From: Rutstroemia sp. NJR-2017a BVV2
Lineage: Eukaryota > Ascomycota > Leotiomycetes > Helotiales > Rutstroemiaceae
Length of the DNA stretch: 64,000 nucleotides
Direction: 5' to 3'
NCBI GenBank assembly: GCA_002946415.1
Contig: NJPS01000062.1
Coordinates: 248,001-312,000, forward strand
Below the pieces are notes generated by a model. It ran no database searches. It was not told where the DNA came from and was given only the letters and a program-made list of their open reading frames with translations. Of this stretch, positions 49,830-50,809 are shown piece by piece; positions within the stretch are counted from its first letter, which is position 1; each line of letters opens with the position of its first letter. Both the position numbers and the translations under genes were made by a program.

Positions 49830-49924
49830 GTACGTCTATTTCACGGTTTTATTGCGAAATTCTGCGAGAGTATATCGGAGAATATTGCGATGAGCTTCAA
49901 AGCTAACATTTGGCACTGATTTAG
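49830..49924 (+). other. Likely 5' UTR intron of the NAC beta gene
   Basis: A GTACGT donor at 49830 and a CACTGATTTAG acceptor ending at 49924 enclose 95 nt about 70 bases before the start codon. The donor sequence is the same as that of the two coding introns that follow. Confidence 0.5.
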
Positions 49925-49993: not shown

Positions 49994-50809
49994 ATGGATA
50001 TGGAAAAGTTGAAGAGAATGCAGGCGCGAGGTGGTATGCGAACTGGTACGTTTGGCTCTATTTAAGGATATCTGGAAATGGAATTGTGGGAGGCCGTGGA
50101 TACAAATTGGGAGCTATGCCCTACTACTGCTCATCCAATTCTCGGTCTCTTGGACTATTTCTTCCCGCGTTGCACAGTTTCTAGCAGCTAACATTTTCTC
50201 AGGGTACGTTGACAATTTATCATTTACTTCTGAATCTGCGATTACGACTACAACGACTGGATTTCAAATAACGCAAACCGAATTGCGCGCATAGCGGGGT
50301 AGCATAGACGTGCTGACAAAATCAATAGTGGAAAGGGTACACCAAGAAGAAAGGTCAAGAATGTTCACAAGAGCACTGGAATGGACGACAAGAAGCTACA
50401 AACCGCCCTGAAGAAGCTGAACGTTCAACCTATCCAAGCTATTGAGGAAGTGAACATGTTCAAGTCTGACGGAAACGTCATCCACTTCGCTGCACCAAAA
50501 GGTAAAGCGATTCAACACACAGCACCATAGTCAGGATCATTCTTCTAACTTTCAACTACAGTTCACGCCGCCGTCCCATCCAACACTTTCGCCATCTACG
50601 GAAACGGTGAAGACAAGGAGCTCACGGAGCTCGTTCCCGGTATTCTTAACCAACTTGGCCCAGACTCCCTTGCCTCCCTCCGAAAACTTGCCGAGAGCTA
50701 CCAATCGATGCAAAAGGCAGAAGGTGGTGAAGATAAGAAGGACGACGAAGATGATGATGACATTCCCGATTTGGTCGAGGGAGAGAACTTTGAAGATAAA
50801 GTCGAATAA
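49994..50809 (+). CDS. EGD1: Nascent polypeptide-associated complex subunit beta
   Basis: This is a predicted 157-residue ribosome-associated chaperone subunit that pairs with NAC alpha at the exit tunnel. Coding segments are 49994-50045, 50203 (one base), 50329-50501 and 50562-50809. The start [18 protein letters not shown] is followed by [15 protein letters not shown], the ribosome-binding RRKxxKK-type motif of the family. The NAC domain follows: [31 protein letters not shown] and [24 protein letters not shown]. The acidic C-terminus is [20 protein letters not shown]. The Gly-Gly junction before KGT cannot be made by one canonical intron. It requires the one-base exon flanked by CTCAG and GTACGT. 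Skipping that base changes frame and gives an early stop. Confidence 0.93.
50203..50203 (+). other. EGD1: Single-nucleotide micro-exon of NAC beta
   Basis: The base G at 50203 sits between a complete acceptor (GCTAACATTTTCTCAG, ending 50202) and a complete donor (GTACGT, starting 50204). Joining ACTG (exon 1), G and TGGAAAG (exon 3) yields Thr-Gly-Gly-Lys, the conserved family sequence. It could equally be described as a recursive splice site, since removing intron 1 first rebuilds a GTACGT donor one base further on. Confidence 0.8.

Follow-up and report, generated by a model that had tools for sequence, protein, structure and literature searches.

The stretch of DNA analysed here, referred to as the window, spans 64,000 nucleotides (C59:248001-312000) of the 43.4-Mb, 79-contig genome of Rutstroemia sp. 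NJR-2017a BVV2. Bp 49994-50809 of its forward strand hold a gene for NAC-beta, a core ribosome-associated chaperone, and a search of the 43.4-Mb assembly found the gene in this one place only. The encoded protein matches the Pfam NAC domain (PF01849, E=5e-24), and query residues 1-153 match the BTF3 chain 7qwq_u of the PDB (E=6.6e-44). A NAC domain together with near full-length similarity to BTF3 places the protein in the NAC-beta/BTF3 family. The closest public protein among the matches listed, P0001 from Rutstroemia sp. NJR-2017a WRK4, is 99% identical.

The gene is laid out as follows, with all features on the forward strand. Coding exon 1 (49994-50045) encodes 17 residues, an N-terminus conserved in homologues, and ends with one further G (phase 1). 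The next long coding exon, 50329-50501, starts T-GGA-AAG-GGT and encodes GKGTPRRK and the first part of the NAC domain. Intron 3 (50502-50561, 60 nt), whose junction served as an internal control, precedes the last coding exon and stop codon (50562-50809). The RRK is the ribosome-binding motif, and the troublesome junction between exon 1 and the next block lies just before it. Upstream of the coding sequence, splice motifs (GTACGT ... CTAACATTTGGCACTGATTTAG) mark a possible 5′-UTR intron of 95 nt at 49830-49924. This candidate has the same GTACGT donor as intron 1 and shares with it an 11-base match (AGCTAACATTT) near the branch point, a match equalled in 4 of 500 shuffles.

Exon 1 ends ...CGAACTG at bp 50045 and is one nucleotide out of frame with the block that begins at bp 50329. 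The 283 nt between the two are made up of a 157-nt intron, the base G50203, and a 125-nt intron. Intron 1 (50046-50202) opens with a GTACGT donor (50046-50051) and closes with CTAACATTTTCTCAG (50188-50202), with a CTAAC branch-point-like site at 50188 and a TCTCAG acceptor. The lone G follows, and a second GTACGT (50204-50209) is the donor of intron 2 (50204-50328), which has a CTGAC branch-point-like site and an AATAG acceptor; CTGACAAAATCAATAG ends at bp 50328, and TGGAAAGGG starts at bp 50329. That is, a single base separates an AG from a GT, preceded by one branch-point-like site and followed by another together with its acceptor, which is the arrangement of a one-nucleotide exon. Every coordinate that the earlier note gave around 50046..50328 is right to the base, and its claim that G50203 restores a Thr-Gly-Gly-Lys junction is borne out: with this G as the middle base of the first Gly codon, the NAC-beta frame is open for 157 aa to its normal stop. 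Retention of either intron 1 or intron 2 leads to early stops. Neither of the two introns is a copy of the other, the best match between them, GTACGTT, being equalled in 373 of 500 shuffles.

We propose that G50203 is a constitutive exon of the NAC-beta pre-mRNA, set between two ordinary introns, and give this reading of the sequence a probability of roughly nine in ten. Introns 1 and 2, each with its own donor, branch-point-like site and acceptor, would be removed by the spliceosome one after the other; the single base between acceptor 1 and donor 2 leaves no room for both removals at once, and since no splice site is split, the sequence imposes no order. Were intron 1 removed first, G50203 would become the last base before donor 2; were intron 2 removed first, it would become the first base after acceptor 1. 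Both orders would yield ACT-G-G-TGG, with the mRNA junction ACTGGTGGAAAG, and G50203 would keep the basic RRK region and the NAC domain in frame. As either order leads to the same mRNA, a one-nucleotide exon and a recursive splice site are inseparable from sequence.

The earlier note had supposed that removal of intron 1 rebuilds the same donor. This is mistaken: the second GTACGT is already complete before splicing, so that removal of intron 1 would only change the exon-side bases, from AG/G to TG/G. A stwintron-like nested unit, in which splicing is obligately recursive and one removal makes the splice site of the other, is improbable. Fungal stwintrons are in print, and the two introns here are one base apart; as in the available accounts of [D1,2] stwintrons, two adjacent fungal introns would be removed consecutively. 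According to those accounts, the inner intron of a [D1,2] stwintron interrupts the outer donor between its first and second bases. In contrast, the NAC-beta splice sites are all complete, and one base lies between the introns: after CAG50202 comes GGTACGT rather than TACGT, and no split donor is rebuilt. Both donors and acceptor 1 already exist in full in the unspliced transcript, so that either intron could be excised without prior removal of its neighbour.

Just as improbable is regulated skipping, in which the G is sometimes omitted, giving the junction ACTGTGGAAAG and a frameshifted, decay-prone mRNA that tunes the level of NAC-beta. When bp 50045 is joined directly to bp 50329, a stop arises at codon 45, which is 28 codons from the junction codon, as the earlier note had estimated; a protein made after skipping would lack both the basic RRK region and the NAC domain. 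Such a stop suits a switch. However, no skipped isoform was seen, although frameshifted products would hardly be listed as homologues, and RNA folding of the region is ordinary (z 0.52, with 70 of 100 shuffles folding as well). The expression switch put forward in that note finds no support; it is simpler to suppose that this conserved chaperone gene carries the exon constitutively.

Enumeration of splice models shows how strongly the conserved protein depends on G50203. Among 114 open two-intron GT-AG models, exactly one, that with the one-nucleotide exon, yields the exact conserved protein, and none of the single GT-AG introns tried does so. The frame is kept by 12 single GT/GC-AG introns, all of which alter the conserved N-terminal part, and their GT donors are GTTGAA or GTTTGG only. 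The least damaging uses GTTTGG (50050-50055), an in-frame alternative donor, and inserts a Thr. Single introns with boundaries other than GT/GC-AG were set aside, as they ignore the internal motifs. A GTRNGT at both donors is found in 6 of the 114 two-intron models, including the one-nucleotide model; two others keep GGKGTPRR but insert 5 or 6 residues by way of a 16- or 19-nt exon, and the remaining three take a second acceptor that lies earlier and add a larger number of residues. Donor usage over 264 kb was too noisy a statistic for weighing GTACGT against GTTTGG (3 seen, 3.0 expected; 7 seen, 7.0 expected).

Homologues were gathered with three protein queries as the best 120 of 3937, 2958 and 4128 matches, respectively, giving 268 distinct proteins. 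These listed proteins were split into 67 transcript-like records (a short contig and no named genome), 197 gene models from named genomes, and 4 set aside, namely a pair from contigs about 5 kb long, of which just one is clean at the junction, and a pair recorded under a host organism, of which P0208 is clean and P0089 is not. P0208 is a fungal-type NAC-beta filed under the firefly Photinus pyralis and is probably a fungal contaminant of an insect transcriptome. The uninterrupted full-length frames of the transcript-like records, and their contigs of 598-2501 bases where given, point to cDNA.

Among the matches listed, a clean (R/Q).GG(K/R)G junction is present in 67 of 67 transcript-like proteins and in 24 of 197 gene models (Fisher p 1e-42 with relatedness ignored). 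The other 173 gene models listed comprise 34 with a one-residue insertion, 22 with Gly-Tyr followed by V, I, A or M, and 117 otherwise aberrant. The later two queries were themselves Gly-Tyr-Val models and bias the set towards that class; for the first query, a clean protein, its best 120 matches gave 50 of 50 clean among transcript-like records versus 13 of 69 among gene models, with Gly-Tyr in 6 of 69. The transcript-like P0004, 91% identical and from a 740-nt contig, reads RTGGKGTPRR. The homologue junction and the splice models thus agree that the base G50203 is required for the conserved protein. At the intron-3 junction, a strict pattern failed in just 11 of the 197 gene models and 2 of the 67 transcript-like proteins listed, which argues that the trouble is local to the junction between exon 1 and the next block; those 11 failures are 4 plain substitutions, 5 models with inserted residues and 2 with no context printed. 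The 24 clean gene models may reflect intron loss or good RNA support. Of the Pezizomycetes listed, 3 of 4 are clean, and this class may lack the one-nucleotide exon or be better annotated; the Orbiliomycetes listed are aberrant in 4 of 4.

A single intron from the weak donor GTTTGG at 50050 to 50328, with Thr-Gly-Thr-Gly-Lys and the junction ACTGGTACTGGAAAG, keeps the frame, and its translation equals public P0001 letter for letter; a one-residue insertion at the same spot is found in 34 of the 197 gene models listed. The identity with P0001 means that the public annotation of strain WRK4 ran into this frame difficulty too and resorted to a weak donor to get around it. Against this model, the insertion occurs in 0 of the 67 transcript-like proteins listed, and it leaves the internal acceptor, the lone G and the second donor unexplained. 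Moreover, the residues added in the 34 models listed (14 T, 8 D, 5 I and seven others) are mostly those expected from a predictor that slides the donor four bases: T, I and D, 27 of the 34, correspond to the second GT of GTACGT, GTATGT and GTGAGT. The GTTTGG donor is judged an annotation artefact, and a genuine intron starting there is very unlikely.

A 16- or 19-nt exon is scarcely credible. It would use an acceptor 1 at 50187 (AGCAG) or 50184 (TCTAG), giving RT-ANIFS-GGK or RT-AANIFS-GGK, and both models are open with the two GTACGT donors unchanged; but the CTAAC branch-point-like site would become coding, no CTRAY stands shortly before either acceptor, and 5 or 6 residues would be inserted versus none in 67 of 67 transcript-like homologues listed. 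The segment TAGCAG at 50182-50187, just before the CTAAC of intron 1, thus holds two in-frame alternative acceptors. An assembly error of one base, gained or lost, or decay of the gene would fit a frame that hangs on one base but merits as little credence, given that P0001, whose assembly seems to be a different one (its longest contig has 422,921 bases, versus 1,122,397 here), needs the same exon ends, that like trouble affects 173 of the 197 gene models listed at the same junction, and that the rest of the gene is intact and was found in one place only.

The errors in the gene models can be decoded. The set used for this is made up of 73 aberrant models in which the N-terminus is intact and the change is longer; the 34 one-residue insertions were kept apart, and 66 more models lack the N-terminal pattern. 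Reading through donor 1 predicts Gly followed by Thr (GTACGT), Met (GTATGT), Lys (GTAAGT), Arg (GTAGGT) or Glu (GTGAGT). Using acceptor 1 and then reading through the lone G and donor 2 predicts GGG-TAY-GTN, that is, Gly-Tyr-Val, and only if donor 2 is GTAYGT, because GTAA, GTAG and GTGA give stops. In the 73 models listed, the residue after R.G is T, M, K, E or R in 41, as for donor 1 read-through, and Y in 22 (19 of them Y-V), as for a lone G plus GTAYGT; 10 fit neither class. One of the 22, P0243, reads Y-G and could have another cause. The models with Tyr come from Leotiomycetes (Sclerotinia borealis, Rhynchosporium, Halenospora), Eurotiomycetes (Emmonsiellopsis, Cladophialophora, Aspergillus, Penicillium), Sordariomycetes including Pyricularia (three records), Drechmeria and Trichoderma, the Dothideomycete Venturia, and Chaenotheca of a lichen lineage.

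This decoding of proteins is indirect evidence that AG-G-GTAYGT would stand at the same codon in the genomes concerned. Scans of genome_contigs and viral_contigs found no genomic DNA of fungal relatives, so the case for conservation is built on proteins. The occurrence of the 22 Gly-Tyr models across four classes and a lichen lineage suggests that the exon is probably old, the arrangement probably being inherited from an ancestor of most Pezizomycotina. The pattern also suggests that the sharing is wide in Pezizomycotina, beyond a local curiosity, and that gene-prediction software usually misreads this exon. The one-nucleotide exon put forward in the earlier note is supported by the junction anatomy, the splice-model enumeration, the transcript-like homologues and the decodable model errors, whereas the accompanying switch is not.

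The chance of such a motif was gauged with patterns picked after the site was seen, which cover CTAAC or CTGAC branch points and GTANGT donors only. The window contains CTAAC-N(3,25)-YAG-G-GTANGT a single time, and none of 100 shuffles contains it. CTAAC-N(3,25)-AGGGTANGT occurs 4 times in the 43.4-Mb genome on both strands, versus 48 for a backwards-pattern control, so that about 1e-5 is expected per 283 nt of one strand, or about 2e-4 by the control. The CTGAC form occurs 7 times genome-wide on both strands (control 28), and CTAAC-N(3,25)-YAG-any base-GTANGT 11 times on both strands (control 85). The genome patterns point to 19 loci, of which only L003, L006 and L017 are also preceded by a GTRNGT donor and followed by a branch point with an acceptor. 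L006 is NAC-beta itself; no need for a one-nucleotide exon was found at L003 or L017. L003 was rejected as a one-nucleotide exon, since an open frame runs through it and it looks like an ordinary exon end. At L017:478-499, CTAACACACATATAG-A-GTACGT stands 117 nt downstream of a GTATGT donor and is followed by a CTAAC...CAG acceptor; it lies near a contig end, outside any coding context, and is possibly a second one-nucleotide exon, or chance. Loci L009 (C25) and L013 (C74) lie in identical 3,025-base stretches with the same coordinates, 334705-337729, which may indicate duplicated contigs in the assembly.

Few one-nucleotide exons came up in the literature searched, although the phenomenon is not unprecedented, as the available parts of reports on plants and on Fusarium CYP621A show. 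The authors of PMC12940212 (2026), in the portion available, regard the CYP621A exon as the first of this size for a fungal gene; it was confirmed by SRA reads, reported in Fusarium only, and is seldom expressed. The likeness to NAC-beta, as far as that portion goes, is close: in both fungal nuclear genes, the lone G of AG-G-GT is the middle base of a Gly codon and lies between a phase-1 and a phase-2 boundary, and nearly all CYP621A gene models are wrong. They differ in the gene itself and in the evidence, the NAC-beta exon being known from sequence and the CYP621A exon from SRA reads. In plants, the available text describes one-nucleotide exons in APC11 (PMC4674806) and VPS55 (PMC8831610), proven by mutated constructs and cDNA sequencing. 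Like these, the NAC-beta exon would be one that a conserved gene has retained through deep lineages and that reference annotations lack; unlike them, it is fungal, and it is a G rather than the A of Arabidopsis APC11. The literature searched, with subscription journals and preprints mostly outside its scope, gave no paper joining NAC and microexon and none on this NAC-beta exon, and a word search of the accessible text of PMC5639578 and PMC9024468 gave no match to microexon or NAC. The NAC-beta exon would be new and is apparently ancient.

It is fairly likely that the one-nucleotide exon already existed when most or all Pezizomycotina last shared an ancestor, that it has persisted ever since, and that most public NAC-beta records of this group are wrong just before the ribosome-binding motif. 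The exon would explain why 173 of the 197 gene models listed are not clean at one junction, and it would give annotators a simple rule to fix NAC-beta models. If true, a very large fungal group would stably maintain the smallest possible constitutive exon in a core gene associated with translation. A conserved one-nucleotide exon in a core chaperone gene would be a test bed for the spliceosome where there is no room for exon definition, with Neurospora and Aspergillus as tractable hosts for its study.
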